In this document: in pieces, positions 1,283 through 34,882 of the stretch | Numbering within the stretch: the first letter of the stretch is position 1 | Layout of the letters: the number at the start of each line of letters is the position of its first letter | Assembly (NCBI GenBank): GCA_949152475.1 | Contig: OX424566.1 | Span: 13,229,177-13,293,176 of the forward strand | Reading direction: 5' to 3' | Origin: Terebella lapidaria | Lineage: Eukaryota; Annelida; Polychaeta; Terebellida; Terebellidae | DNA: 64,000 bases | Translations under genes and position numbers: made by a program | Notes under the pieces: generated by a model | The model's database searches: none | What the model was told of the DNA's origin: nothing | Seen by the model: the letters and a program-made list of their open reading frames with translations, nothing else

Positions 1283-1325
1283 GGCCAAAATATTCATGGC
1301 CAAAACATCCAGGCCAAAACGTCCA
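1283..1325. repeat. Short minisatellite, three copies of ~14 bp
   Basis: Three consecutive units of the form GGCCAAAACRTCCA (the first is GGCCAAAATATTCAT). A looser related piece, GACCAAAACGTGAT, lies about 30 bp upstream. Confidence 0.7.
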
Positions 1326-1530
1326 TTGTCCAAGAAATTCCACTTGCCTTGGCTTATAGTATTACAAATTATTACAGTGTACATGCCAGGATGGGACACA
1401 CTTTTTGTCTGCTAAACAGTGTTCTTGCCATATTGAACAGAGAAAGACACACTTTTTGATGGGACACACTAATTGATATTACACCAGTGATGTATTTTAG
1501 GCATCATTACCATGTCTTTCGTGTGGAAGG

Positions 1531-1935
1531 GAAGCCACCAGGCATTGGCAGGTCATCCTGATGGGCAGCTATCCAGATAACCTACGATGACAGGCTGGCA
1601 ACCATACGAGTTGGGGAGTTAAGATGTACCTCGATACTTTCAGGACACCAACCAGGCCAACTAGTGGGCACCGGCTGGTGATCGATCGGTGCCCAGATGG
1701 TTCTCGTCCGGAGCCTGGAACATAGGCTGATGCCCAGATGGATGCTGGGATGTCTGTCTCAGATATATGAAGGGAGCAGGTGGTTGCCCACTAGGTGGCT
1801 AGTTGGTTCCCTGAATGTATCAGGGTACCATTTTCCCCCCCATTACCTATGGGTGCCTGGCGATCACCATACGATGTCTGGATATGTGCCCACCAGTGAC
1901 CTGCCAATGCCCGGCGGTTGCCTGCCAGATTCACA
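1531..1935. repeat. Long imperfect palindrome, MITE-like
   Basis: The left arm (from about 1533, GCATTGGCAGGTCA then GGGCA then TATCCAGA) reappears reverse-complemented at about 1875-1925. The inner parts pair as well: the segment around 1640-1680 (CCAACTAGTGGGCACC-like) matches the complement of 1770-1825. The centre lies near 1730. The block is richer in GC than its surroundings. This is the structure of a foldback or MITE-type DNA element; I did not find a clear target duplication. Confidence 0.6.
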
Positions 1936-2399
1936 TATAATCATGCGTTTTGACAGTGTCCGTGCAATGTAAAAAAAAATCGGCCAACCAATGATGTGCT
2001 CTACTGATACCTGCTCGGTGACTATCTGATATGTATATATTGGCCGATTATCTAAGGTCACTTTCCGGAAATCTATCGGCACCCGGCAGGATACCCTGCG
2101 GTCACCAATTGGTGAGCTACCCAGATTGGTTGGCTGAAAAATTCGGTTGATCCCCTCGGTGTCCAGTTGAAATCTTGATGGGTTCTGACGGGTCACAGGC
2201 AGGTGCTAGCGATTCACTAATGACGTTACCTTTTCCACCTGTCGCGGCAAGAAAGCAACTCTTGTTATTTTTTCCGATGTTTCCACTGACGTCTCTCCAT
2301 TGTCCGGTCGCTGTCCGATGGCCACTCCGTCTGTGACGGGACGACAGAGCCAAATTTCAGCCATTTTGGTCGTCAATGGAGGCATCAGACCAACTGTGA
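1936..2399. other. Non-coding, nothing recognised
   Basis: Moderately GC-rich stretch with short pairing words such as TCGGCCAACCAAT and TTGGCCGA. Frames are short and show no family motif. Confidence 0.4.
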
Positions 2400-4380
2400 C
2401 TGATGTATTACTCTTGTGATGTAAACATCGACCTAGCCCTCTAGGTAACTGACAGGTTGTTGCAGATTTTCGTTCGAGAAATAACGGCAAGGGTGACATT
2501 TGTATATTCGTGTAAGAGAGGACAAGATATGGAATAAGAGGAAAACCAATAATGCGTGGCTCGAGGCAAAGATTTGTCTTCGTTGCTGTCACCAATTGTT
2601 GACTACACCTACTTGATATGTATCGATCTCGTGGACCTACTGAATAAGCAAAAAATTATATCCCACACCATGCTTATTCCAGAGTTCTTTTAAACGCAAA
2701 AAATGAATATAGATTCACTTAATTGGGAGTCGTTTGTTGTGACATGATCAGTCTGAAGCCTTAATGTAATATCCCATCCAAAGGCGGATACTACCGTTCG
2801 TTCCCTCAAGACTTAGACATGTTATCTAGCAGGTTGCTTTTATCATGAAAACCACTTTAGCTGCCCGTTCCGATAGGCGCAGTGATATTACACAATGAAG
2901 AGTGAGGTACCAGGTCTTGATTCCATAACCTTGTTTAAATATCATACACGTAAATGATGTGCAGTAACCTGTTTATTGATATAAATGGAATGATACATTG
3001 AAAATCTAGCCAATGACGGTGGTGCATGTATATCAACCTAAAACTACTAATATAACAAGACTTTGATGATGCCCGAGCAACATTGGAACACCTAATTTCG
3101 TGAAATGAAATAAGAAACAAAATCAGATTGCGTATATTCACAGCCAAAGCCACCATTGGCGTCATCCGAGACAGACAGTGTATTGTACATTTGATGGAAC
3201 TAGCAAACGACTGCCCACGTCCTAATGAAACAATTAATCAATCCCAAAAAATCATGGATATGATATTTTGTAAATGATATTACCTTGTGTTAAGGACAAT
3301 GTTATTAGCTTCGCACATGTGTGCATATTATTACTCACAATGCCATGTCTGAGCAATCAGACATCATTATGAGTCAGGGCGTTAAGCTTATTATCACTGA
3401 TAATAATATCTAATTCAGGGTGACACAAAGCAATCTTACATCAGCAGCAGCCACCTGTGTACAACACTCCTCATTGCGAGTCAAGGAATGATTCCCTAGT
3501 ATCGAAGGGTAATCTCTCATTATACGCATGGGTTTATGCGTTTACATTGACCTCTAGCGGATGTTGGCATAGCCGCTATCAAGCACAATCTTCAGACTAA
3601 GTCAGTCACCTTTCCGTGCTTACCAGAGCTACGGGTCTCAGAGCTGTAACTGCTAGTATGGGAATCGAGGAAGGGATGTTTGTCAGCCTAACTAAATAGT
3701 TATATACTGGGTGGATGTGCCAGGTAGCTTGGGGACTAGGTGGAATTGATGATTCTATGTATAAATCACTGGTGTCTGCATTACTCGTGCTGCTCAACAT
3801 ATTTAGCAGCGAGTATTTGACTTCATATACATATGCGGGATTTAGTGATTTATTAATGGACTCAGCTTGGTATTGGTTCCATGTTTGTGTGTAAGCCGAA
3901 CCGTCTCTGTGATGAAAGGTCATTAATTCAGATCAACTGTATTGATTTTATAGCTTCAAGGCATAACAAATATAAATATCAAAATATTTTATATGTCTAT
4001 ATTTTATATTTGATGTGAACGCCAACAGCTCACTTGCGATAGTAGCGCCATGGGATGTCACTGAGGCCATTTGTCAATAATTTATTTCCCAGTCTATTTG
4101 TCAAGCTGTTTGCTGTCGTTGGGTACGAGTTATTGAATTTATTGTGGGTTGGTTTTGAAAGTCATCACACAGTCATTCCTTTCGCCAATCAGGTCTCTGA
4201 CAATATGGAAAACTTGCTGACAGTATGACTTCATAACAGTATGGGAGATCACTATGCTGTCTTGTCATTGTGATGGTTGGAGATTTTGGTGATGACAATT
4301 AGTATATAATGGTGCATCTGAATGAGTATTACCATGACAATCAGTACGTACTAATATGTTTAAAACCAACAGTGATTCCA
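2400..4380. repeat. ~2-kb dispersed repeat, copy paired with 15775-17720
   Basis: Landmarks occur in the same order here and at 15775-17720: GTAAACATCGACCT, TAGATTCACTT, GTGACATGATCAG, GGTTGCTTTTATCATG, GAATGRTACATTGAAAATC, CCTTGTGTTA, a GAGCAATCAG block, TCAAGCACAATCTTCAGACT, then GCTCACTTGC. Other partial copies lie at 11423-11960, 12255-13460, 14421-15152 and 18000-18808. No protein frame is conserved between the copies, so I read it as a non-coding repeat. Confidence 0.75.
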
Positions 4381-4774
4381 AAAATCGATTGTATATCAAA
4401 CATAATGTGCTGTAACGTGTTTATTGATATGACTGGAATAATACATTGAAAATCTAGACAATGAGCGTGATGCGTGTGTGATGGGTGAGGGTGATGCGTG
4501 AGGGTGATCAACCTACAACTACTAATATAAAAAGACTTAGTTTCGTGAGTTCAAAAAACAGAACAAAGCCCGATCACATATATTTACATCCAAAGCCACA
4601 CTGGCGTCATTAGAAACAGACAGTGTGAACTATATTTGTTTTTATTGTACATTTGATGAAACTAGCGAACGACTGCAAACAACCTCCTTGAAAATATACA
4701 TCCCAAACAATGGTGGATGTAATATTACGTCAATGATATTCTCTTGCGTTATGGACATCTGTGACACATTCGTA

Positions 4775-4783
4775 CTAACAATG
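4775..4783 (+). other. LINE target site duplication, 5' copy
   Basis: CTAACAATG lies at the left edge of the LINE and recurs at 11414-11422 at its right edge. Related host repeats at 12330-12345 and 3330-3345 read continuously through this point (CTCACAATG followed by CCATGTCTGAGC-like sequence), which gives empty sites for comparison. A third copy, at 7309-7317, comes from the later segmental duplication. The last three bases are an in-frame ATG for ORF1. Confidence 0.85.
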
Positions 4784-5515
4784 AGACATATCGATGTCCC
4801 ACTCCAGAGCGGTGTGAGTTCAGCATTCACCCCTCAACACTACTCCAGCTCAAGTCACCCCCGCGGAAGAAACGCTCACAAAAGCACATACCTCACTGAT
4901 GAAGGAAACAGGTATTTCAAGGGTGAAAATGACCCTTTGTCCAATTTCTACCCATGTCAACTCCGCGCCCAGGGTAAAGAGTTCCACAGTGCAGAACAAG
5001 TCATCCAGTATAGACGAGCGCGAATGTGTCACCGGCAAGAAGTAGCTAATGAAATCCTGAACGCACCTGATGGTCCATCCGTATACGCAGTCGCGAAACA
5101 ACACCTCGAACGCGCGGACCCACGTTGGCAGAGGCACAGGGACGAAATTGTGTACGAAACAGCATCTCTAAAATATCGACACTGCGCTGATTTCCGTGAC
5201 GAGATCAATACCCTCCACAACTGTCATATCGTTGAAGACACTCCAGACCCCTATTGGGGACGAGGTCCTAGTGGTGGCGGTGAAAACGTCATGGGTCAAA
5301 TCCTGGAGTCGATCAGGGATGGCCTTCCTTACGAATCACACACCGTCCACGATTCGCGTACTGAACAAGACACGCACGTGAGGCAACTCCGGCCCTGCCC
5401 GAACTGTGGTGAACGGAACCATTCCCCTGAAAACTGCAAACACGGGATCCCAATCCAATGTGACAAATGTGCATGCTATGGTCACAAGAGTAAACATTGT
5501 TTAAATGGACTGTAA
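4781..5515 (+). CDS. LINE ORF1: NADAR domain plus two CCHC zinc knuckles (left copy)
   Basis: 244 codons, same protein as the copy at 7315-8049. The NADAR fold spans about residues 45-180: DPLSNFYPC near its start, FHSAEQVIQYRRA in the middle, then DPYWGRG and GGGENVMGQILESIR at its end. Two perfect C-x2-C-x4-H-x4-C knuckles follow at residues 206-219 and 227-240. The start chosen is the ATG in the last three bases of the target duplication. The frame is open further upstream, but that part is host repeat, so the family's true N-terminus is probably missing. In LINEs ORF1 normally binds the RNA template; the knuckles fit that. NADAR proteins elsewhere act on ADP-ribose-type substrates. What the fused protein does is unknown to me. 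Confidence 0.85.
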   Translation: MRHIDVPLQSGVSSAFTPQHYSSSSHPRGRNAHKSTYLTDEGNRYFKGENDPLSNFYPCQLRAQGKEFHSAEQVIQYRRARMCHRQEVANEILNAPDGPSVYAVAKQHLERADPRWQRHRDEIVYETASLKYRHCADFRDEINTLHNCHIVEDTPDPYWGRGPSGGGENVMGQILESIRDGLPYESHTVHDSRTEQDTHVRQLRPCPNCGERNHSPENCKHGIPIQCDKCACYGHKSKHCLNGL

Positions 5516-6602
5516 GCCAAAGAAGCATAGGCTCAAGCTCTAGTGTTTCTGATTCTGATAGCAGGCGTGACAATTATTCCTGCTTTGGTGATACCGATAG
5601 TTCTTATACATGTAACGATGTGATAAATGATGTTATTAACCTAGATGTGATCCCAGATGTGATTAGCCCAGATTCATGTTGTTATTATGAGTCTGAGGAT
5701 GACTCAAGTATGTGTTCAATATGTAGCATTCCGGATTATGAGTGTCCATGTAAAAATGTTAACACATTACAACTGTGTGCACGAAGTGCATTTGATGTTC
5801 CTATATACAGTGATCTGAAATCTCTCAGAAACCAATATCCAAAAAATATTGTAATTGGTCACTTGAACATAAATGGTCTGAGATCCAAGCATGACGAAAT
5901 TAAGTATATCTTGCAAAATAAGTATATTGACATACTAGCGCTTAGTGAATGCAAGCTTGATTCCTCCGACAATGATTCTATTTTTAGAGTGGAAGGCTAT
6001 AATTTGTTCTGAAAAGATAAACGGAAAAATAGTGGTGGTCTGCTCATTTACGTGTCCACCAAAATACCTCACAGAGAAATTGCTGTAGATAACTGTGGGG
6101 AGATTGAATTAATGTGTATGGAATTAATTTTGGATAAAGAGCATAAGTGGTTATTTGTCCATTCGTATAAAAACCCAAATGTTCACAACAAAGAGTTCGA
6201 GATATGTCTTGATGAAGTTTTGAATGATGTTTTGAAAATATCTGATAATGTTGTATTGGTAGGTGACTTAAATTTCAACATGTCTCGCCCATGCTTATTG
6301 TCAGAAATGTTACCTGTATATGATTTACACAATCTGATAACTGACCCAACATGTTTCAAATCGGCTAATGCTACTCTAATTGATGTATTTCTCACTAACC
6401 ATAAAAACCGGTTCTTAAAAAGCTTTTCATTTGATGTTGGTATTTCTGATTTTCACAACATGATTGGGTCCGTTATGCGAAAGCACATACCAAAACCAAG
6501 TTCGAAAATAATACATTATAGGAACACTGGTAAAATTGACTATTCTATTGTGAAACATTCGTTATCTACTATTGATGTTTCTGTGTTAGATGCTGATCAA
6601 TA
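4784..6602 (+). mobile_element. NADAR-LINE, duplicated 5' portion (partial copy)
   Basis: This is the front of the LINE described at 7318-11413, made by the tandem duplication and not by a separate retrotransposition. It holds complete ORF1 and about 360 codons of ORF2 (endonuclease), then ends abruptly at the duplication junction. It has no reverse transcriptase and no 3' end, so it could not mobilise itself. Confidence 0.9.
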
Positions 6603-6603
6603 A
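5494..6603 (+). pseudogene. LINE ORF2 fragment (endonuclease only, in-frame stop)
   Basis: It opens inside the end of ORF1 in another frame and encodes an AP-type endonuclease: HLNINGLRSK, ALSECKLD, GDLNFN, TLIDVFLTN and ISDFHN. An in-frame TGA sits at 6010-6012, in the place where related proteins usually have Arg (YNLF, stop, KDK). The frame then continues to the duplication junction, where TAA at 6601-6603 ends it. The reverse transcriptase is missing. It carries the same TGA as the right copy, so the stop is older than the duplication. Confidence 0.85.
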
Positions 6604-7308
6604 TTTGTCAATAATTTATTTCCCAGTCTATTTGTCAAGCTGTTTGCTGTCGTTGGGTACGAGTTATTGAATTTATTGTGGGTTGGTTTTGAAAGTCATC
6701 ACACAGTCATTCCTTTCGCCAATCAGGTCTCTGACAATATGGAAAACTTGCTGACAGTATGACTTCATAACAGTATGGGAGATCACTATGCTGTCTTGTC
6801 ATTGTGATGGTTGGAGATTTTGGTGATGACAATTAGTATATAATGGTGCATCTGAATGAGTATTACCATGACAATCAGTACGTACTAATATGTTTAAAAC
6901 CAACAGTGATTCCAAAAATCGATTGTATATCAAACATAATGTGCTGTAACATGTTTATTGATATGACTGGAATAATACATTGAAAATCTAGACAATGAGC
7001 GTGATGCGTGTGTGATGGGTGAGGGTGATGCGTGAGGGTGATCAACCTACAACTACTAATATAAAAAGACTTAGTTTCGTGAGTTCAAAAAACAGAACAA
7101 AGCCCGATCACATATATTTACATCCAAAGCCACACTGGCGTCATTAGAAACAGACAGTGTGAACTATATTTGTTTTTATTGTACATTTGATGAAACTAGC
7201 GAACGACTGCAAACAACCTCCTTGAAAATATACATCCCAAACAATGGTGGATGTAATATTACGTCAATGATATTCTCTTGCGTTATGGACATCTGTGACA
7301 CATTCGTA

Positions 7309-7317
7309 CTAACAATG
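7309..7317 (+). other. Extra copy of the LINE target site duplication
   Basis: CTAACAATG again, carried along with the duplicated host flank (4775 plus 2534). Its presence in both units shows that the segmental duplication copied an already occupied site. Confidence 0.85.
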
Positions 7318-8049
7318 AGACATATCGATGTCCCACTCCAGAGCGGTGTGAGTTCAGCATTCACCCCTCAACACTACTCCAGCTCAAGTCACCCCCGCGG
7401 AAGAAACGCTCACAAAAGCACATACCTCACTGATGAAGGAAACAGGTATTTCAAGGGTGAAAATGACCCTTTGTCCAATTTCTACCCATGTCAACTCCGC
7501 GCCCAGGGTAAAGAGTTCCACAGTGCAGAACAAGTCATCCAGTATAGACGAGCGCGAATGTGTCACCGGCAAGAAGTAGCTAATGAAATCCTGAACGCAC
7601 CTGATGGTCCATCCGTATACGCAGTCGCGAAACAACACCTCGAACGCGCGGACCCACGTTGGCAGAGGCACAGGGACGAAATTGTGTACGAAACAGCATC
7701 TCTAAAATATCGACACTGCGCTGATTTCCGTGACGAGATCAATACCCTCCACAACTGTCATATCGTTGAAGACACTCCAGACCCCTATTGGGGACGAGGT
7801 CCTAGTGGTGGCGGTGAAAACGTCATGGGTCAAATCCTGGAGTCGATCAGGGATGGCCTTCCTTACGAATCACACACCGTCCACGATTCGCGTACTGAAC
7901 AAGACACGCACGTGAGGCAACTCCGGCCCTGCCCGAACTGTGGTGAACGGAACCATTCCCCTGAAAACTGCAAACACGGGATCCCAATCCAATGTGACAA
8001 ATGTGCATGCTATGGTCACAAGAGTAAACATTGTTTAAATGGACTGTAA
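7315..8049 (+). CDS. LINE ORF1: NADAR domain plus two CCHC zinc knuckles
   Basis: 244 residues. Residues 1-44 are a low-complexity, Ser-rich leader. Residues 45-180 form a NADAR (YbiA-like, DUF1768) domain, recognised by FKGENDPLSNFYPC, SAEQ followed by IQY, the Trp/Gly pair in DPYWGRG, and a closing GGGENVMGQILESIR. Residues 206-219 and 227-240 are two canonical CCHC knuckles with C-x2-C-x4-H-x4-C spacing. In many NADAR proteins a Lys follows the Q-Y of the middle motif; here the sequence is QYRRA, so catalytic competence is uncertain. The start is the ATG supplied by the target duplication. ORF1 is clearly richer in GC than ORF2, which may point to capture of a host coding segment. It overlaps the start of ORF2 by about 20 bases. 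The frame is intact in both copies. Confidence 0.85.
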   Translation: MRHIDVPLQSGVSSAFTPQHYSSSSHPRGRNAHKSTYLTDEGNRYFKGENDPLSNFYPCQLRAQGKEFHSAEQVIQYRRARMCHRQEVANEILNAPDGPSVYAVAKQHLERADPRWQRHRDEIVYETASLKYRHCADFRDEINTLHNCHIVEDTPDPYWGRGPSGGGENVMGQILESIRDGLPYESHTVHDSRTEQDTHVRQLRPCPNCGERNHSPENCKHGIPIQCDKCACYGHKSKHCLNGL

Positions 8050-11000
8050 GCCAAAGAAGCACAGGCTCAAGCTCTAGTGTTTCTGATTCTGATAGCAGGC
8101 GTGACAATTATTCCTGCTTTGGTGATACCGATAGTTCTTATACATGTAACGATGTGATAAATGATGTTATTAACCTAGATGTGATCCCAGATGTGATTAG
8201 CCCAGATTCATGTTGTTATTATGAGTCTGAGGATGACTCAAGTATGTGTTCAATATGTAGCATTCCGGATTATGAGTGTCCATGTAAAAATGTTAACACA
8301 TTACAACTGTGTGCACGAAGTGCATTTGATGTTCCTATATACAGTGATCTGAAATCTCTCAGAAACCAATATCCAAAAAATATTGTAATTGGTCACTTGA
8401 ACATAAATGGTCTGAGATCCAAGCATGACGAAATTAAGTATATCTTGCAAAATAAGTATATTGACATACTAGCGCTTAGTGAATGCAAGCTTGATTCCTC
8501 CGACAATGATTCTATTTTTAGAGTGGAAGGCTATAATTTGTTCTGAAAAGATAAACGGAAAAATAGTGGTGGTCTGCTCATTTACGTGTCCACCAAAATA
8601 CCTCACAGAGAAATTGCTGTAGATAACTGTGGGGAGATTGAATTAATGTGTATGGAATTAATTTTGGATAAAGAGCATAAGTGGTTATTTGTCCATTCGT
8701 ATAAAAACCCAAATGTTCACAACAAAGAGTTCGAGATATGTCTTGATGAAGTTTTGAATGATGTTTTGAAAATATCTGATAATGTTGTATTGGTAGGTGA
8801 CTTAAATTTCAACATGTCTCGCCCATGCTTTTTGTCAGAAATGTTACCTGTATATGATTTACACAATCTGATAACTGACCCAACATGTTTCAAATCGGCT
8901 AATGCTACTCTAATTGATGTATTTCTCACTAACCATAAAAACCGGTTCTTAAAAAGCTTTTCATTTGATGTTGGTATTTCTGATTTTCACAACATGATTG
9001 GGTCCGTTATGCGAAAGCACATACCAAAACCAAGTTCGAAAATAATACATTATAGGAACACTGGTAAAATTGACTATTCTATTGTGAAACATTCGTTATC
9101 TACTATTGATGTTTCTGTGTTAGATGCTGATCCAAACAAAGCCTTCTGCGAATTTCATACGCGTCTGACGAATATTTTCGACGAAAATGCTCCAATGCGC
9201 ACACGAAAACAAAAAGTCAAGGACTTCCCCGTTATGACACGCGAGTTGAAGTCCGCGATTTATGCTCGAAATATGTCCCGAAATAAGTACTTCAAATATC
9301 GATCGAATCATTATCATGTACTTTACAAGTCATGGCGAAACAAAGTCACTGCAATAAAACGCTCTATAACAAGAAAATATTTTCTCGAACATTGCAGTAG
9401 AGGAACTTCTAATGCACAATTTTGGAAACCCATCAAACCCTTCCTTTCCAAGGGATCCAATATACGTGATGACATCATGATCAGAGAGAATGACGAAATA
9501 ATTTCTGATAACGGTGAAATATGCAATATATTCAATGACTTTTTTGTCTCTATAGGCAACGATATCGGTACATATGATGACACGACGAAATCACTCGCAT
9601 GTATCATTGATACATATAAATTTCATTCGTCCATTATGATAATTGAATCTATGTCCATTGGTCAAACGTTCACGTTTGAAGAAACTTCGCCCGAAGAAGT
9701 ATCTAATATAATCGATGCTCTGAAGAAAGGCAAATCTCCGGGATATGATGCAGTGCCACCTATATTTCTCAAATGTTTACGTGATGAGCTTGCGGCACCG
9801 CTATCCCACCTCATCAATAAATGTATCAATGCTAATGTTTTTCCTGATAGTCTCAAAAGGGCAAATATAAGTCCGATATATAAAAAGAAGGATCGATTAG
9901 AAAAGGATAATTTTCGCTCTATTAATCTTCTTCCAATCTTGTCCAAGATATATGAACGTATTATTTGTGACCAGCTTCTGCATTTCATGAATAACATTTT
10001 TCACCCTTTTCTCTCCGGGTTCCGGAAAAAGCATGGATGCAAAGATATATTGTCCATTCTTGTCGAAAACTGGCGTAAGGCTTTAGACGATAAACACTAT
10101 GTCGGAGCTATAGCCATCGATTTGTCTAAGGCATTCGATTGTATGCCTCATTCACTCCTGTTAGCGAAACTCAACAAATATGGTGTTGTTAATGAGTCCT
10201 GTGAGCTCATAAAGTCGTATCTCTGTAATCGATTGCAGCGGGTCAAAATCGATAACACGACGAGTAACTGGGTGACCGCCAAAAAGGGCGTGCCTCAGGG
10301 CTCGATTCTCGGCCCGCTTCTTTTTAATATTTTTATCAATGATCTTCTCCATATTGATTTGCAATGTTCAGTGTATAATTATGCTGATGATAATACGTTA
10401 TCTTATACTCACATGAATTTCGACACAGTGAAACGCGTCTTGAAGCATGATGCTCTAACTCTTATTGAGTGGTTCAAGTCCAATAGGATGAGAGCCAATC
10501 CTGACAAATTCCAGTTACTTTTCCTTGGTAAACAGATATCATCATCTGAACATTGTATATCCATAGGAAACTCAACTCTCAGGGGCTCGAACGTTATCAA
10601 TGTACTGGGTATAGATTTGGATCAGGACCTAAACTTTAAATCTCATGTTGAAAATGTATGTGTAAAAACTGCTAAACAGATTAACGCATTGCTCAGAATC
10701 AATTCTCACCTTAATGTTAAGAGTCGAAAAAGTATTTATAATAGTTATATTGTATCCAATTTTAATTATTGCTGTAATGTCTGGATGTTTACAAACTTAA
10801 GAAATTTGAATAGACTTGACAAGTTGAACGAACGTGCACTGAGATTAGTGTATCAAAATCGAACTGCTTCATATGACGAATTATTGCATCTTGACAACTT
10901 TTATGATGTTTATAAACGTTTCACGGTTTCATTAGCTATAGAAGTTTTTAAAATTCGCAATAACTTAGCGCCGGTATATCTTTGTAATTTGCTTGAGGTA

Positions 11001-11225
11001 AACAATCCACACTATCATCTTAGAGACCAAAGCACTTATGTACTCCCTAAGTTCAATTCTAAAACATATGGTTACCATTCCCTAAGATATATTGCTAGTA
11101 AATTATGGAATATGCTAGAATACAATGATAAGAATACATCGTCCCTATCTCAGTTCAAACGAAATATCAAAATATGGATTAAAAATAAGCAATCATCCCT
11201 ACTAAGATCTGAATTATTCCAATGA
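8028..11225 (+). pseudogene. LINE ORF2: endonuclease and reverse transcriptase, one in-frame TGA
   Basis: The frame is open from 8028 to the TAA/TGA region at 11225, about 1065 codons, broken only by TGA at 8544-8546. After a Ser/Asp/Cys-rich leader comes an AP-endonuclease (HLNINGLRSK, ALSECKLD, GDLNFN, TLIDVFLTN, ISDFHN). Next is the RT, with KGKSPGYDAVPP, SKAFDCMPH, GVPQGSILGPLLFN and the catalytic YADD at 10380-10391. The C-terminal region typical of the Jockey/CR1 group follows (LNRLDKLNERALRLVY, then YHSLRYIASKLWNML). A CGA to TGA change (a CpG transition) at an expected Arg would explain the stop. No ATG occurs at the opening; it starts with ACA-TTG inside ORF1, so translation by reinitiation or coupling with ORF1 is likely in the intact family. 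As it stands, this copy cannot make a full ORF2 protein without readthrough. Confidence 0.88.
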
Positions 11226-11395
11226 AATGTGATATCGAATCTACGTACCGTTATGTCATGTATATGCACAAAATGTACTTCCCGTTTTCGAATGTCTGAT
11301 TATGTCATGTATATATCCATCGCACAGAAGTTCTTTGAGCTTGTATTATATAGGTGTGATTTCATAACTGTATATACCGATTGCATGCGATGTTA

Positions 11396-11401
11396 AATAA
11401 A
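11396..11401 (+). other. Polyadenylation-type signal at LINE 3' end
   Basis: AATAAA lies 12 bases before the 3' edge of the LINE, within GTTAAATAAATTTTATTC. It may serve the element's RNA 3' end. Confidence 0.5.
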
Positions 11402-11413
11402 TTTTATTCTATT

Positions 11414-11422
11414 CTAACAATG
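11414..11422 (+). other. LINE target site duplication, 3' copy
   Basis: CTAACAATG directly after the LINE end. Host repeat sequence resumes with TCATGCCTGAGCAATCAG, matching 3345-3360 and 12350-12365. Confidence 0.85.
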
Positions 11423-12254: not shown

Positions 12255-13460
12255 TTCGTGTATGTGATATTATGTCAATGATATTCCTCTGTATTGCAGG
12301 ACAATGTTATTGGCTTCGCACATCTGTGACACTTTAGTGCTCACAATGCCATGTCTGAGCAATCAGGCCTCATTGCAAGTCAGAGCATTAAGCTTATTAC
12401 CAGTGATATTAATATCTATTTAAGGGTGACACAAAGCAATCTTACATCAGCAGCAGCCACCTGTGTACAACACTCCCCATTGCGAGTCAAGAAATGATTC
12501 CCTAGTATCGAAGGGCAATCTCTCATACGCATGGGTTTATGAGTTTACATTGACCCATCGTCATTGCTTACACAACCGCTATCAAGCACAATCTCCAGAC
12601 TAAACCAGACACCTTTCTGTGCTTACCAGAGCTACTGCTATCAGAGCTGTAATTGTTTTCGTGGGAATCGATGGAGGGACGTTCGTCAACCTAACTAAAT
12701 AGTTATACACTGGGTGGATGTGCCAGTTAGTTTGTGGACTACCTGGCATTGATGATTTTATGTATGAATCACTCAGTCTCCAATCTAATTACTCGTGCTG
12801 TTTGACATATTTGGCAGCGAGTGTTTGATTTCATATACGTATACAGGGTTAGTGAATTTCCAATTTTGAGGATTTATTAGCAGACTCAGCTTGGTATTGG
12901 TTCCATTTTTGTGTGTAACCTGAACTGCATCCGTGATGAAAGGTCATTAGTTCAGATTATTGTACTGATTTCATAGCTTCAAGGCATAACAAGTATAAAT
13001 ATCAAAATATTTCATGTGTCTATGTATTATATTTGATGTGAGCACTAACAGCTCACTTGCCACAGTAGCGCCATGGGCTGTCACGGAAGCAATTTGTCAA
13101 CAATTTATTTTCCAGTCTCTTTGCTGTCGTTGGGTACAAGTTATTGAACTTATTGTGGGTTGGTTTCGATAGTCATCACAGGGTCACTCGTTTCGCCAAC
13201 TAGGTCACTGACATAAAGGAAAACTTGCTGATAACTGATTAATTCATAACAGTATGTGGGATCACTATTTTGTCTTGTCATTGGGATGGTTGGAGATTTT
13301 GGTGATGACGATTAGTAGATAATGGTGCATCTGATTGAATAGTCCCGTGACAATCAGTACGTACCAATCTGTTTAAATGCCAACATTGTCGATGAGAACC
13401 GAGTGACCTCAACAGATTAGTGTCCAAAGCGTTTATTTCCTTATGAGGTTTACTCATGCA
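12255..13460. repeat. Dispersed repeat unit of ~1.2 kb
   Basis: It aligns by landmarks with 3270-4400 and 16625-17720: GACAATGTTATTRGCTTCGCAC, GTGACACAAAGCAATCTTAC, CGAAGGGCAATCTCTCAT, CAGTGATGAAAGGTCATTAG-like, GCTCACTTGC, and GGGTTGGTTT near its end. Frames in it are short and not conserved between copies. Confidence 0.75.
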
Positions 13461-14138: not shown

Positions 14139-14420
14139 AATTAGGTGCTACAAAACAGTCTTACATCAGTAACATCCACCTGTGAGCTAAGCTCCCCATG
14201 CCTGCGCATGAAATGATTTCCCATTGCTACGTTGATCTCTCAAATGTATTTGTGCAGTGTGGTTTCATGCCAAGGTATTGCACTAAGCCTATTGTCAGTG
14301 ATAGCTATATGTAAATCAGGGCACTACAAAACGGTCTAACATCAGTAGCATCCATCTGTGAGCTACGCTCCCCGTGCTTAGGCATGAAATGATTTCCCTC
14401 ATGGGTGGGTTAATCTCTCA
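14139..14420. repeat. Tandem pair of a ~100-bp motif with ~185-bp period
   Basis: Unit one starts near 14139 and unit two near 14325. Both run CTACAAAAC, GTCT, ACATCAGTA, CATCCA, CTGTGAGCTA, GCTCCCC, then GCATGAAATGATTTCCC. Just downstream, at 14430-14460, two short words (CAACCGCTAT and CAAGCACAAT) are each doubled. Confidence 0.65.
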
Positions 14421-15152
14421 CAACCGCTATCAACCGCTATCAAGCACAATCAAGCACAATCATCAAATTGAGTCAGTCACCTTTCCATGCTTACCAGAGC
14501 TGCAGGTTTCAAGCTGTAACTTCTATTGTCGGTCTTAATTGAAGGATATTTTTCTGCTATATGAATGGACTGCACGAATGTGCCTGGTAGGTTGGAAACT
14601 TCCTGGCATTGATCGTTTTATATGAATCACTGGTTTATGCGGCCTGCTTGCGTTATTCATGCTGCCTTATATATTTTCCGACAGTGTTTGAGTTTATGTA
14701 CACATACAGGGTTTGCTTGAGGTAACTTATTTCATATTTCGTATTGATTGACCATTTCTGATCCATGCCTATTGCGGTTTGGTCCTTACTCTGGTCCCAT
14801 TGTAATATATTCTGACGTTAAAAACACAACAAATGTAGGCATTTATATAGGCCTATGTGATAGGTCTACCCACATGTATATATTAAGTCCGGTATGCGTT
14901 ATGAATTGTGTTGTGACAATGTTTGTAATAATAATTGTAACCGGATCGTAGATGATGCAATTGCTCTTACTACTCTGATGACCATGTCCCCGGTATAACT
15001 GGACGACTAGCTAAGAACTGGTCAATGGTCACGATTCTCTCGACATTGAGCGACAAGTAGTAATTAATGGTGAATTTGAATGAATAATCCGATGACAATA
15101 AGTACTTTCCATTCTGTTTTGAATGATAAATGTCAATGAACCCTCATTGACC
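14421..15152. repeat. Diverged dispersed-repeat segment
   Basis: Contains AATCAAGCACAAT, GTCAGTCACCTTTCC, TGCTTACCAGAGCT and GAATCACTGG, in the order seen at 3575-3775 and 12590-12780. The remainder (about 14720-15150) is AT-rich and I recognise nothing in it. Confidence 0.55.
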
Positions 15153-30056: not shown

Positions 30057-33000
30057 TTACAAACTCCGAGACAAAGCATCTGCAATGATATTGTTTTTAC
30101 CCCGTATATGCTTTATGTCCAAGTTATAGTTCTGTAACATCAAACTCCACCTCAAAAGTCTCTGGTTGTTATTTTTCATTTTGTGAATGAAAACCAAAGG
30201 GTTATGATCGGTGAAAACCTGTATTGGATACAAGGTAGAGGATAAGTACACTTCAAAGTGTCTGAGAGCTAACACGAGAGCTAAGGCTTCTTTCTCAACG
30301 GTAGCATAATTCTTCTGATGAGAATCAAACTTTTTGGAATAATAACAAACAGGATGATCAACTTGGTCAACCTCTTGTAGCAACACTGCTCCAGCGCCAA
30401 CATCGCTAGCATCAACACAAAGTTTGAAAGGCTTCTGGAAATTTGGAGTTACCAAGATGGGTTCGCTCATGAGAATACCTTTGATCGAGTCAAATGCATG
30501 TTGACAACTATCACTCCAAGTGAACTTGATGCCCTTTCTCAAAAGGTTAGTTAATGGTGCGGCAACACATGAAAAGTTTGGGCAGAATCTCCGGTAAAAC
30601 CCAGCCATACCTAGGAATCTCATCACTGACCGCTTGTTACCTGGAACAACATACTTCATAATGGATTCGACTTTGGACTTAACTGGCTGGACCTGTCCTT
30701 GACCAATGGTATGTCCCAAATATACAACATGAGCACAACCAAATTCAGTTTTGGTTAGATTAATAGTAAGTTTAGCAGCTGCACATCTTTCCAAGAAGCA
30801 ACGGATGTTATGGAGATGCTCCTCCCAAGTATCTCCGGTTACAACAACATCATCGATATACGCAACACATCCCGTCAAACCTGAAATGACCGAATTGATC
30901 AACCTCTGAAAAGTAGCTGGGGCATTTTTCATGCCGAACGGCATCACCCTGTAGTTATACAACCCATCAGGTGTAACAAAAGCAGATATGGCACGTGCTG
31001 ACTCTGACAGTGGCACTTGCCAGTATCCTTTGAGCAGATCAAATTTCGTCAAGAATCGACTTTTCCCGATGTGATCTATGCAATCGTCAATCCTTGGGAT
31101 CGGGAATGAATCAGTTCTTGTAACAGCATTGACTTTTCTGAAATCTGTACAAAATCGAAAACTTCCATCTGGTTTTGGTACTAAGATACAAGGCGAGCTC
31201 CATTCACTCTGACTAGGTTCAATAATGTCATTCTGTAACATGTACTTGATTTCTTCTCTCATGGCAGAGAGCTTGATAGGATTCAACCTGTAGGGATGTT
31301 GTTTGATAGGCCTGGCCTCACCAACATCAACTTCGTGCTGCACAACATTAGTCCTACTCGGAACATCAGGGAACACATGTTCAAACTCAAGGATGAGACC
31401 TTTCAACTCCTGCTGCTGTTCCGGACTGAGATGGGACAATTTATCATTTAAATGCTTCAAAACTTGAGAGTTATTCAATTTGACACCACAACCCACCATT
31501 GGGTCACAAACTTTGTCATCCGTGTCCGCTTCGGTAACTGCAACACCAACAGTCTTTTGTGTCAAATCATCACCTCGTGTGTGATACAACTTGATCATAT
31601 TTACATGACAAAGCTGTCTGCTTTTTCTGCGATCTGGAGTGATAACGATATAGTTAAGATCATCTATCTTTTTGTCAATGACATAGGGACCATGGTACCG
31701 TGCCTGGAAAGGAGAACCAACAACAGGTAACAAGACTAGAACCTGATCTCCAACTTGAAATGATCTGTCCCTAGATTTTGCATCATACCATAGTTTCATA
31801 TCTTTTTGTGCATCTTTCAGATTTTGTTTTGCAAACTCTTGCACTTCATGTAATCTGTTTTTAACATCACTCACATACTCTAACAACGGCATTGTACTCT
31901 CATCATCAGAAAGCCACTTTTCTTTCAGCAACTTCAGCGGACCTCGCACAGAATGCCCGAACACCAATTCAAAAGGACTGAAACCTAAAGATTCCTGGAC
32001 AACTTCACGAACAGCAAACAAAAGTAAAGGGACTCCTTCATCCCACTCTTTTTCGTGATCAATACAATACGACCTCATCATTGACTTGAGGGTTTGGTGA
32101 AACCTCTCAAGAGCCCCTTGAGACTGCGGGTGGTACGCACTTGAGGTAACTTGTTCTATCCCCAGTTGGTGGATCATTTGCTGAAATACATGTGATGTAA
32201 AATTGGAACCTCTATCTGACTGAATAGTTCTAGGGAGACCCACTAGAGTGAAAAATTTAACCAGAGCCTTCAAAACACTTTTGGCTTTGATATTTCTGAG
32301 TGGTATAGCTTCTGGGAAACGTGTTGATGAACACATGATAGTTAAAAGGTACTGATTCCCTGAACGAGTTTTTGGCAGTGGTCCAACGCAATCCACAATT
32401 ACCCGTGAGAAGGGTTCCTCAAATGCTGGGATCGGGAATAACGGTGCTTTAGGAATTCCCTGATTGGGCTTCCCCGCCTTCTGGCAAACCGAACATGTCC
32501 TACAATACTCTGCAACGTCCTGCCGGAGCTTAGGCCAGTGGAAATGACGCTGAATTCGATCAAATGTTTTGTTCACACCTAAATGTCCAGCGAGTGGTAT
32601 ATCATGTGCAAGACTGAGTATGTTTTTTCTGTACACTCGAGGGATTACGACTTGATAGATTACACTCCACTCATGTGAGGGAGGTACCACAGGAGGACGC
32701 CATTTGCGCATCAAAACCCCATGTTTCTTAAAGTAACAGATTGCCACATCACCAATGTCCTTCTCATCCAAAGCTACATGACACAGATCGGATAACTCAG
32801 GATCTGACTCCTGTGATTTGATAAGCTCTACACGTTTCACTGAAGAGAGTTCTTTTGGCAGATCGTCAAAAGTTACATGACTAGATTTTCCGGGTGCATT
32901 GAGATCGTTTGAAATCTCAACGGAAATATCTTCAGCTTTCAGCTCGCTTGCAAGAAATGTGTCACCCAAATCAACTTCACCTCCTTCCATGTCATTTTTC

Positions 33001-34631
33001 TTTGACATTGACCTGGTGACAGCACAAGCAGGGAAGAGATGTGGAAACTCCTTTTCGAGTTCGTCCGTATGGTTTTCGATGGAGGGATTGGAAATAACTA
33101 CTGGATCTGGAACAACTTTACTACCTGCAAGGTCGTTACCAAGCAGTAGGGATACTCCTTCAATAGGAAGACTAGGACACACCCCAACAGTCACTGGACC
33201 ATTGACTAGATCGGACTTCAAATTGACCTTATGGAGTGGTATACTGAGATGTCCACATTCTACTCCCCTAATCTCAACGTTACTGCCAAGGGAGGAATCG
33301 TCACTGAGAGGAAGGGTCCCACTAAGCAAAAGAGACTGGGATGCTCCTGTATCTCTCAAAATCTTAATTGAATGGACACCTGATTCATCATCCATTGAAA
33401 CAAATCCTTCAGTCATGAAAGGTGCATAGGATTCCAAAATATCTGTTAATTTCTCTGGAAGATTATGAACCTCAAGAACAGATTTTTCCCCAAGACTACC
33501 AGCACTAGCAGAGCTACCTTCTCGCTCATGCTTCTTCTGTAACTTGAAGCAATCAGAGATAACATGTCCTTGCTTTTTACAATAAGCGCAAGTTATTCGT
33601 CCATGAAAAGAATCAGTTGTACGACTTGGAGAAGTCTTAGACTGAGCTGCCGACTCTGTTTTACCAGAATTTGAAGCAGATGACCCAGTGTGGTTAGGAC
33701 CAGATTTAGGCGCACCTGTCTGGGGCGTTTTTACATGCGTAGGGTTAGTCTTATGTGGTTTATGTTTATGAGACAGCGCATATTCATCCGCAAACACTGC
33801 TGCCTTTTCAAGGTCTTTTACTTTGTGCTCATCAAGATGAATTTTAAGATCAATGGGCACACAACGTTTAAACTCCTCAACCAACATCAACTGTCTGAGT
33901 TTCTGGAAGTTTGTGCCCACCTCAGTAGAAACACACCACCTATCGAAGAGCGACTCTTTTTCTCTGGCAAACTCTACGAATGTTTGATTGTCAGGTTTCC
34001 TGAAGTTGCGAAATTTCTGGCGATAAGCTTCAGGAACTAACTGATACCCTCTCAAGACACTTGTTTTCACCTCATTATAATCTGCGCATTGCTGCACTGA
34101 CAGTGAACAATAAATTTCCTGGGCCTTTCCTTTCAGCACACTCTGCAACAGAACAGGCCAATACTTTATGGGCCAACCTAGATTTTTAGCAACTTTCTCG
34201 AACTGTAGAAAATAATTTTCTACATCTTTCTCCTGGAAGGGTGGCACAAGTCGTATCTCACGACTCACATCAAACTTTGGTGTTTGTGTCTGGGACATTT
34301 CGTGAGTAAGTCGTATTTCCATAGCCCTCATTTCTTTCTCATGAGCTAACTGCATTTTTGAAAGTTCTAACTCAAGCTCTAGTTTTCTAATTTCAGAATC
34401 ACCATCAACAGGGAGCGGAGGAAGATCTTCGAGGAACTCGTCAGACAACAAACTCTCCTCAACCAGGTGTTGTGCAACGATGTGCAACAGCACCACTTTT
34501 CTCATTGCAATTTTCACCTCTAAATGGAAATGTTTACCCAGTGCAAGAAGATCAGACTTTTTCAAACTACTCAAGAGATCCTGAGGCGGATCAGCAAGTT
34601 TTGTAATGAATTCCTCGACACGGAATGCCAT
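30057..34631 (-). CDS. gag-pol: Gag-pol polyprotein of Gmr1-like retrotransposon
   Basis: 1524 codons in one frame without frameshift or stop. The start is the ATG giving MAFRVEEF; an in-frame ATG 14 codons upstream is less likely. Residues ~130-290: Gag capsid region of the kind from which vertebrate SCAN domains derive. 348-361: CCHC knuckle (CAYCKKQGHVISDC). 427-431: protease DTGAS. ~666-1016: integrase, with zinc site H676-x6-H683-x29-C713-x2-C716, catalytic D747, D806 and E842 (DD35E), and GPY at 981-983. ~1080-1320: reverse transcriptase with LVPKPDGSFRFCTDFRKVN, MPFGMKNAPATF and catalytic YIDD (1258-1261). ~1395-1524: RNase H with D1407, E1446, D1475 and D1518. One ORF means Gag and Pol would be made in equal amounts unless processed or regulated otherwise. 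All key residues are present. Confidence 0.95.
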   Translation of the reverse strand: MAFRVEEFITKLADPPQDLLSSLKKSDLLALGKHFHLEVKIAMRKVVLLHIVAQHLVEESLLSDEFLEDLPPLPVDGDSEIRKLELELELSKMQLAHEKEMRAMEIRLTHEMSQTQTPKFDVSREIRLVPPFQEKDVENYFLQFEKVAKNLGWPIKYWPVLLQSVLKGKAQEIYCSLSVQQCADYNEVKTSVLRGYQLVPEAYRQKFRNFRKPDNQTFVEFAREKESLFDRWCVSTEVGTNFQKLRQLMLVEEFKRCVPIDLKIHLDEHKVKDLEKAAVFADEYALSHKHKPHKTNPTHVKTPQTGAPKSGPNHTGSSASNSGKTESAAQSKTSPSRTTDSFHGRITCAYCKKQGHVISDCFKLQKKHEREGSSASAGSLGEKSVLEVHNLPEKLTDILESYAPFMTEGFVSMDDESGVHSIKILRDTGASQSLLLSGTLPLSDDSSLGSNVEIRGVECGHLSIPLHKVNLKSDLVNGPVTVGVCPSLPIEGVSLLLGNDLAGSKVVPDPVVISNPSIENHTDELEKEFPHLFPACAVTRSMSKKNDMEGGEVDLGDTFLASELKAEDISVEISNDLNAPGKSSHVTFDDLPKELSSVKRVELIKSQESDPELSDLCHVALDEKDIGDVAICYFKKHGVLMRKWRPPVVPPSHEWSVIYQVVIPRVYRKNILSLAHDIPLAGHLGVNKTFDRIQRHFHWPKLRQDVAEYCRTCSVCQKAGKPNQGIPKAPLFPIPAFEEPFSRVIVDCVGPLPKTRSGNQYLLTIMCSSTRFPEAIPLRNIKAKSVLKALVKFFTLVGLPRTIQSDRGSNFTSHVFQQMIHQLGIEQVTSSAYHPQSQGALERFHQTLKSMMRSYCIDHEKEWDEGVPLLLFAVREVVQESLGFSPFELVFGHSVRGPLKLLKEKWLSDDESTMPLLEYVSDVKNRLHEVQEFAKQNLKDAQKDMKLWYDAKSRDRSFQVGDQVLVLLPVVGSPFQARYHGPYVIDKKIDDLNYIVITPDRRKSRQLCHVNMIKLYHTRGDDLTQKTVGVAVTEADTDDKVCDPMVGCGVKLNNSQVLKHLNDKLSHLSPEQQQELKGLILEFEHVFPDVPSRTNVVQHEVDVGEARPIKQHPYRLNPIKLSAMREEIKYMLQNDIIEPSQSEWSSPCILVPKPDGSFRFCTDFRKVNAVTRTDSFPIPRIDDCIDHIGKSRFLTKFDLLKGYWQVPLSESARAISAFVTPDGLYNYRVMPFGMKNAPATFQRLINSVISGLTGCVAYIDDVVVTGDTWEEHLHNIRCFLERCAAAKLTINLTKTEFGCAHVVYLGHTIGQGQVQPVKSKVESIMKYVVPGNKRSVMRFLGMAGFYRRFCPNFSCVAAPLTNLLRKGIKFTWSDSCQHAFDSIKGILMSEPILVTPNFQKPFKLCVDASDVGAGAVLLQEVDQVDHPVCYYSKKFDSHQKNYATVEKEALALVLALRHFEVYLSSTLYPIQVFTDHNPLVFIHKMKNNNQRLLRWSLMLQNYNLDIKHIRGKNNIIADALSRSL

Positions 34632-34882
34632 TTTAAAAATGCAATGACGAAAGATAAAATGTAAACGGCACAATAGGCCTAGGACCTCTGATGAGCAAAG
34701 TACTTAGTCCTCAAATAACAAAACAGACATAGGATCGTGAGTCCTTGACTAGCTCCATGACTAGATATGAGTACAAATAAACTTGAACATGCAAAGTTAG
34801 TATATGTATTTGTGCAAAGTCAGGTTAGGAATTGTATGTAGTGTAAACACCAGCCTTCTCTCACCGAAACAAACAGTGAGAT

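Follow-up and report, generated by a model that had tools for sequence, protein, structure and literature searches.

The window, a 64-kb stretch of the Terebella lapidaria genome, contains a 5′-truncated LINE copy whose first open reading frame (ORF1) encodes a NADAR domain and two CCHC zinc knuckles and is overlapped by an endonuclease-reverse transcriptase (RT) frame, ORF2. The insertion has the following features.

4069..6602, + strand: tandem duplicate of 6603-9136, comprising flank and, from about 4791, part of the LINE
7325..11398, + strand: LINE copy lacking its 5′ part and retaining about 4.07 kb of the 5.6-kb element; 99.4% identity to the sister copy L009 (blastn and junction inspection)
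7325..8049, + strand: C-terminal part of ORF1 (NADAR and two CCHC knuckles), with its stop codon at 8047-8049
7459..7860, + strand: NADAR domain, residues 49-182 of the ORF1 fragment
7930..7971, + strand: CCHC zinc knuckle 1, C-X2-C-X4-H-X4-C, from the translation and from similarity to HIV NC
7993..8034, + strand: CCHC zinc knuckle 2, from the translation and from similarity to HIV NC
8031..11225, + strand: ORF2 (endonuclease and RT), in the -1 frame relative to ORF1, with no ATG near its start and a TGA at 8544-8546
8034..8040, + strand: TTTAAAT heptamer, T TTA AAT in the ORF1 frame, a candidate -1 ribosomal frameshift site into ORF2
9882..10610, + strand: reverse transcriptase domain (PF00078), residues 433-675 of the frame 8586-11225
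11399..11419, + strand: A/T-rich 3′ tail, by sequence inspection

An earlier note on this DNA described the NADAR frame and its motifs, the two knuckles, and the overlap with an endonuclease-RT frame, and translation and ORF reading agree with it on all of these. It also took 7315..8049 to be the whole of ORF1, starting at 7315; however, homology to L009 begins at 7325, so the Met codon at 7315 is part of the flank, and the segment is the C-terminal third of a frame that is 683 codons long in L009 and L010. The downstream ORF2, which had been called standard, is of the endonuclease-RT kind (RVT_1 match in a Pfam profile search, E = 1.3e-32) but is not intact: the pieces 8031-8546 and 8586-11225 are one frame split by the in-frame TGA, and the window copy is therefore defective. 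The insert is flanked by a 9-bp direct repeat, CTAACAATG, at 7309-7317 and 11414-11422, which is a tentative candidate for a target-site duplication, tentative because 7 bp separate the repeat from the 5′ junction. The tandemly duplicated segments 4069-6602 and 6603-9136 show 5 differences in 2534 bp, and the duplication accounts for a second, cut-off copy of the NADAR ORF1 at about 4791-5515.

Other features of the window include 193-nt dispersed repeats on both sides of the LINE (3328-3520, 12334-12526 and 14229-14421); relative to the first, the other copies have 91% and 61% identity. On the minus strand, 30057-34673 is a 1538-aa open frame in which gag, CCHC, integrase, and then RT/RNase H can be recognized by eye; we take the placing of integrase before RT to be the order of Gmr1-like Ty3/gypsy elements. 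There is no Rfam match within the 64-kb window at gathering score.

Profile comparisons bear out the NADAR assignment. The ORF1 fragment matches PF08719 with 73 bits (E = 4.4e-20) against a curated cut-off of 35.1, and TIGR02464 with 78.3 bits, only just over its cut-off of 73.7. It also matches the Phytophthora nicotianae NADAR structure 8bau (E = 5.9e-09) and YbiA (2b3w, E = 5.8e-07); the domain has the YbiA fold, and the knuckles resemble HIV NC (E = 0.007). Chance or artefact as the source of the match is ruled out by the profile, the fold, and the 52 family match rows described below.

The 761.6-Mb genome was searched with the ORF1 fragment, and 150 of the 887 first-look candidates were scored. 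At least 52 rows match at 41-100% identity and 98 at 31-35%, some rows being pieces of one copy; the fusion of NADAR to CCHC knuckles in a LINE ORF1 thus recurs, and such NADAR-bearing copies rule out confinement of the domain to the window locus. Twenty regions, accounting for 23 of the 52 rows, were fetched. All 20 contain NADAR pieces, for which they had been selected, 14 have an ORF of at least 150 aa with an RT-like [YF][AV]DD box somewhere in the stretch, and five (L009, L010, L014, L024 and L027) have both an ORF1 of more than 640 codons and an ORF2 of more than 1000 codons open.

L009, on contig C1, and L010 are 99.3% identical over 5.6 kb, with ORF1 (683 codons) and ORF2 (1065 codons) both open in each; the first Met of the L009 ORF1 is codon 23. 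This ORF1 contains in order a PHD finger (144-182; 22.5 bits, slightly below the Pfam cut-off of 24), a coiled coil seen by eye, a GDSL/SGNH domain (305-435; 31.9 bits, slightly below the cut-off of 32.9), NADAR (488-621), and the knuckles. The PHD match is above cut-off in L027 (25.3 bits, with GDSL below at 21.5) and below it in L028 (20.8 bits, with no GDSL match), and the L024 ORF1 has neither match in Pfam. The SGNH part can be aligned in seven of seven ORF1s, all of which have the Asp and His of DGxH; the Ser position reads GSS, GSC or GTS, and some, including the window lineage, lack the block-III Asn. The window-family ORF1 is thus read as a PHD finger, a coiled coil, an SGNH esterase, NADAR, and two CCHC knuckles, and the earlier view that NADAR stands instead of other ORF1 domains is incorrect, since three of these precede it in longer copies. 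The L009 ORF2 matches the PF03372 endonuclease (36 bits) and PF00078 (108.5 bits), both above cut-off. The family is probably a LINE of the CR1/L2 (Jockey superfamily) kind, a clade name suggested by the type of ORF1. An L1/Tx1 assignment was rejected: the family's ORF2 scores only 66.8 bits against human L1 ORF2p, over the RT alone, whereas L034, an element of another kind described below, reaches 309 bits over 878 residues.

NADAR has been conserved in the ORF1 lineage to which the window copy belongs. Among comparisons between LINE families, six pairs have an estimable dS and give NADAR dN/dS values of 0.06-0.23, which are rough because dS exceeds 2; LINE-Penelope pairs give 0.27-0.43 where estimable, the sole close pair (L013/L016) gives 0.64, and for the majority of the 78 NADAR pairs dS has reached saturation. 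Over all 78 pairs, drawn from 13 rows that include the Penelope one, mean pn/ps is 0.44, with 63 of the 78 below 0.5; the SGNH mean is 0.59 over 28 pairs of eight LINE rows, a row set that differs from NADAR's. From these substitution patterns the domain appears to be under constraint in LINE ORF1s. Recurrence and apparent constraint together dispose, for the window family, of the idea that NADAR is peculiar to a single locus and that other copies carry an unrelated ORF1. A chance capture of NADAR, since carried along with no advantage to the element, would agree with the lack of the domain in some relatives, yet it is kept over diverged families and sources and varies less than the adjoining SGNH domain (with the different row sets just given), and we regard such a passenger as very improbable and already disfavoured.

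NADAR is also present in other retroelements of the genome. A search with the Pfam profile, in which 150 places were scored of 973 candidates, gave at least 150 further NADAR places above cut-off (all 150 scored; E = 1e-47 to 1e-31), which, judging from scores, should be distinct from the ORF1-fragment rows. Four of these were inspected, and all are frames of 422-486 codons with a C-terminal NADAR; a coiled coil was recognized by eye in them, as was a middle part resembling L1 ORF1 (which has no Pfam match), and endonuclease-RT frames lie downstream. One of the four, L034, which has a separate SGNH ORF upstream of ORF2, fits the NADAR-bearing Tx1 elements of oyster mentioned in PMC12477816.

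Three of the 98 weaker rows, L029-L031, were also inspected. L029 has a 574-codon ORF1 frame with NADAR, followed in the -1 frame by an RT (RVT_1, 44.3 bits, above cut-off) with a GIY-YIG-like end (18.8 bits, below the cut-off of 22.6; E = 0.002). The same ORF1 and RT parts are fused into a single 1300-codon frame in L030, and L031 has the same ORF1 followed by only the first 63 codons of the RT frame, with a Penelope-like RT/GIY-YIG frame directly upstream. On contig C6, NADAR rows are spaced about 4.9 kb apart at about 12.32-12.38 Mb and 35.41-35.49 Mb, and these are probably head-to-tail arrays of the same element. From its motifs and tandem arrays, L029 is presumably a Penelope-like element. 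Its ORF1 has no Pfam GDSL match, and in a single hhalign comparison the C-terminal part matches the LINE SGNH profile (96%, E = 4e-9), with the LINE NADAR profile, as negative control, at 0.1%.

Relatives were also sought among proteins from other sources. The truncated ORF1 fragment gave no match, full-length relatives probably being longer than the length range of that search. With the full LINE ORF1 profile, 8000 candidates were scored and a single relative emerged: P0002, a metagenome protein of 501 aa that combines an SGNH domain (below cut-off in Pfam, 181 bits against the LINE profile) with NADAR and ends in a zinc knuckle. The Penelope ORF1 yielded 20 proteins, of which 15 have a database assignment of NADAR: 14 of the Penelope type (P0003-P0015 and P0017) and P0022, which by eye belongs with the coiled-coil LINEs. 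P0003, at 98% identity, may derive from T. lapidaria itself or a near species. The other five (P0016 and P0018-P0021) have no NADAR assignment and keep, by eye, the N-terminal and SGNH-like parts, and NADAR thus seems to come and go in Penelope-type ORF1s too.

In a 43-row NADAR tree the LINE domains form group A (12 rows, support 100/99) and the Penelope domains group C (14 rows, 92/90), and the two unite with support of 97/89, and of 100/95 in a 30-row tree. The outsiders are bacterial, phage, YbiA, oomycete, and group-B domains, the trees being read without root or direction. Of 26 bacterial NADAR loci, ten were used in the first tree (30 rows) and nine in the second (43 rows), from which bac_L061, a long, frame-broken row, was removed. 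P0003 is in neither tree; for L010, L013, L015, L017, L021, L023, L030, L031, and the window copy, residues were counted but no row was entered in a tree. Both the trees and the residue count exclude the first window copy, the frame-broken NADAR pieces of L008, L011, L012 and L019, and one further piece each, the second, from L016 and L022. A single origin of groups A, B and C is compatible with the data (p-AU 0.092 in the 30-row and 0.106 in the 43-row tree). LINE and Penelope-like ORF1s therefore have the same NADAR branch in common, lying in both beside an SGNH-like domain.

A genome search with the window-family RT gave at least 141 matches (140 of 8896 candidates scored). Four relatives with 41-46% RT identity and an open ORF2 of at least 1000 codons (L063-L066) were inspected upstream; they were selected for having no NADAR row among the ORF1-fragment matches listed, and are thus uninformative on frequency. 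None has NADAR in upstream frames of at least 90 codons. The L063 ORF1 (1325-3361) contains PHD, UPF0029 (88.8 bits, cut-off 27), SGNH, and knuckles; that of L064 (214-1863, minus strand) has PHD below cut-off, SGNH, and UPF0029 (93.7 bits), its knuckles being in a different frame; in L066 there are only SGNH and knuckles; and no ORF1 was seen upstream of the L065 RT. UPF0029 thus occupies the NADAR position in L064 and lies on the opposite side of SGNH in L063. Since these relatives carry UPF0029 or neither domain, NADAR appears to be one among several accessory modules set about a framework of SGNH and knuckles, and its absence from L063, L064, L066, P0016, and P0018-P0021 indicates that retrotransposition as such does not require it. 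That UPF0029, which is of the IMPACT/YigZ type, acts in a LINE ORF1 against host translation-stress signalling is only a guess. The L066 SGNH region (2594-3499) also has a sub-threshold match to the OSK (Oskar) domain, at 19.4 bits.

In the window copy, L009, L010, L013-L017, and L029, the end of ORF1 carries an in-frame slippery heptamer, T TTA AA[T/C], and ORF2 lies in the -1 frame. This arrangement spans the window family, other LINE lineages, and a Penelope element and suggests that -1 programmed frameshifting joins the two frames. The heptamer, counted without regard to frame, also follows the last knuckle in L011, L012, L018, L019, L021-L023, L025, and L028, and 13 of 19 Penelope-type ORF1 proteins end in LN. 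In L024 (2829-2831), L027 (minus strand), and L026, ORF1 ends in TAG GGA, and ORF2 follows in the same frame in L024 and L027; this sister sublineage is a candidate for stop codon readthrough.

The window NADAR shares its fold and most pocket residues with the E. coli C7 and P. nicotianae (8bau) NADARs and YbiA, and differs from these hydrolases in having Arg for the pocket Lys and in its fusion to nucleic-acid-binding domains (PMC11543638, PMC11125620). The residue count covers 19 domains of group A, namely those of the window copy and P0002 and 17 in the fetched regions, near-identical copies included. E72, equivalent to the catalytic Glu (E88 in E. coli C7, E43 in P. nicotianae), is kept in 18 of 19, and W159, N169, and the last-strand residue E152 (Glu in the YbiA family) in all 19; position D156 is Asp in 13 and His in six. 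The phosphate-contacting Lys (K95/K50), which is largely, not wholly, conserved over the superfamily (PMC11543638), is replaced by Arg (R79) in 19 of 19. The Lys-to-Arg change recorded in the earlier note is thus common to the group, but it does not force the binding-only role then left open, since E. coli C7 NADAR carrying the K95R mutation can still hydrolyse guanine-ADPr in vitro, though with loss of cell rescue (PMC11543638). In Penelope-type ORF1s (L029 and 13 proteins) Glu, Lys, Trp, and a last-strand His are invariant, this His replacing Glu in all three Penelope NADARs of the T. lapidaria genome.

The R79 replacement, the six His residues at the D156 position, and the Penelope His could all be taken to mean that NADAR is a reader, which binds ADP-ribose itself, or a host protein or nucleic acid modified with it, and tethers the ORF1 ribonucleoprotein (RNP) with no hydrolysis. 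We consider this rather unlikely: E72, W159, and N169 are retained, K95R is still hydrolytic as noted, and characterized phage NADARs, which have His at the last-strand position, remain active (PMC11125620). An activity of NADAR towards NAD-derived metabolites, towards NAD-capped RNA, or towards intermediates in the processing of the element's transcript is an unlikely reading, fusion to nucleic-acid-binding knuckles arguing for a macromolecular substrate. The TIGR02464 match would favour a small molecule, with a score barely over its cut-off, as would the N-glycosidase activity of YbiA on riboflavin intermediates (PMC9303266); RNA processing draws on SNA-3, whose trans-splicing function needs at least two of its three NADARs (PMC9303266), and has been proposed for the transposable-element NADARs of Ectocarpus and oyster (PMC12477816).

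The reading we favour most, while giving it somewhat less than an even chance, is that NADAR is a guanine-ADPr eraser on the ORF1 RNP. ORF1p would coat element RNA via its knuckles and so place an ADP-ribosyl-glycohydrolase on that RNA and the nascent cDNA, where it would strip ADP-ribose put there by a host ADP-ribosyltransferase. Guanine bases would be the most likely target, because the guanine linkage is what NADARs cleave in nucleic acid: NADARs, the active oomycete enzyme among them, remove ADP-ribose from guanine in DNA (PMC11543638), and they are the only tested hydrolase family that removes it from guanosine in RNA (PMC11833690). They are inactive on phosphate-end and 2′-OH ADPr-RNA (PMC11833690), so RNA marks made by PARPs are not obvious substrates. 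Guanine-N2 ADP-ribosylation of DNA has been found in six edible clams (PMC11209040), and such chemistry therefore exists in invertebrates. ADP-ribosylation is tied to antiviral defence in animals, and a similar removal of host-made ADPr marks has been proposed for the NADAR and macro domains that animal positive-strand RNA viruses encode; the viral domains sit in polyproteins, and the available text of that source has no occurrence of 'transpos' (PMC9503650).

Candidate host enzymes were sought in the T. lapidaria genome, which has PARP-type catalytic exons (32 matches of 53 candidates). The PARP matches on contigs C433, C318, and C423 contain several in-frame TAA/TAG codons, and these contigs are possibly foreign DNA with a different genetic code. 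No DarT was found, with the positive control matching, and no Scabin/pierisin-like guanine transferase was found with PF22596, in a search in which the positive control was also silent and introns were ignored. The PARP-type exons count in favour of the eraser reading, and these two negative results count against it.

The earlier note knew of no published description, yet PMC12477816 names NADAR in Ectocarpus Gypsy and Crassostrea gigas Tx1 elements, the latter in ORF1. These are YbiA-family domains within a retroelement protein, as in the window LINE, which differs from the oyster Tx1 in its non-L1/Tx1-like ORF2 and in the PHD, SGNH, and CCHC domains of its ORF1. Among the literature matches listed, this is the only source linking NADAR to retroelements, its available text naming none in Penelope-like elements; no PHD-SGNH-NADAR-CCHC LINE, Penelope NADAR, or UPF0029 swap appears among those matches, many subscription papers, preprints, and Repbase notes lying outside them. 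A PHD finger, a coiled coil and an SGNH esterase, as read here in ORF1, are also known from CR1/L2-lineage LINEs, together with ORF1 domain shuffling (PMC4120745, PMC3905857). Unlike the window family, the 448 elements treated in the main text of PMC4120745 come with no occurrence of NADAR, YbiA, or UPF0029, and esterase ORF1s were found there only in vertebrate groups; the main text of PMC3905857 likewise has no occurrence of NADAR. Bdelloid LTR and Athena/Terminon elements share GDSL and DEDDy ORFs, a case of the same accessory enzymes occurring in different retroelement classes, Penelope-like elements included; it differs in that the LTR elements keep the enzymes as separate ORF3s, and NADAR has no occurrence in the available text (PMC5408684).

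Animal LINEs and Penelope-like elements could share a horizontally exchanged counter-defence cassette in ORF1, consisting of SGNH with either NADAR or a UPF0029/IMPACT-like partner, delivered by knuckles, and with recoding into ORF2. We hold this broader proposal to be doubtful; under it, NADAR would clear guanine ADP-ribose from element RNA and cDNA, and the UPF0029/IMPACT-like partner would possibly damp the host translation-stress response. To our knowledge, no ADP-ribosylation defence against retrotransposons has been described, and if the cassette reading is true, one would exist in invertebrates.

The sharing of one NADAR branch suggests that enzyme modules pass between LINEs and Penelope-like elements, widening the known reticulate evolution of ORF1. 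The distribution of the domain over unrelated retroelements also suggests that NADAR may help them to evade host control, and the turnover of modules would then mirror changing host defences. A domain of a nucleic-acid ADPr-hydrolase family in unrelated retroelements, replaced in some relatives, points to a host activity that can be searched for, and the activity to expect would be one yielding ADP-ribosylated guanine in germline RNA or cDNA.
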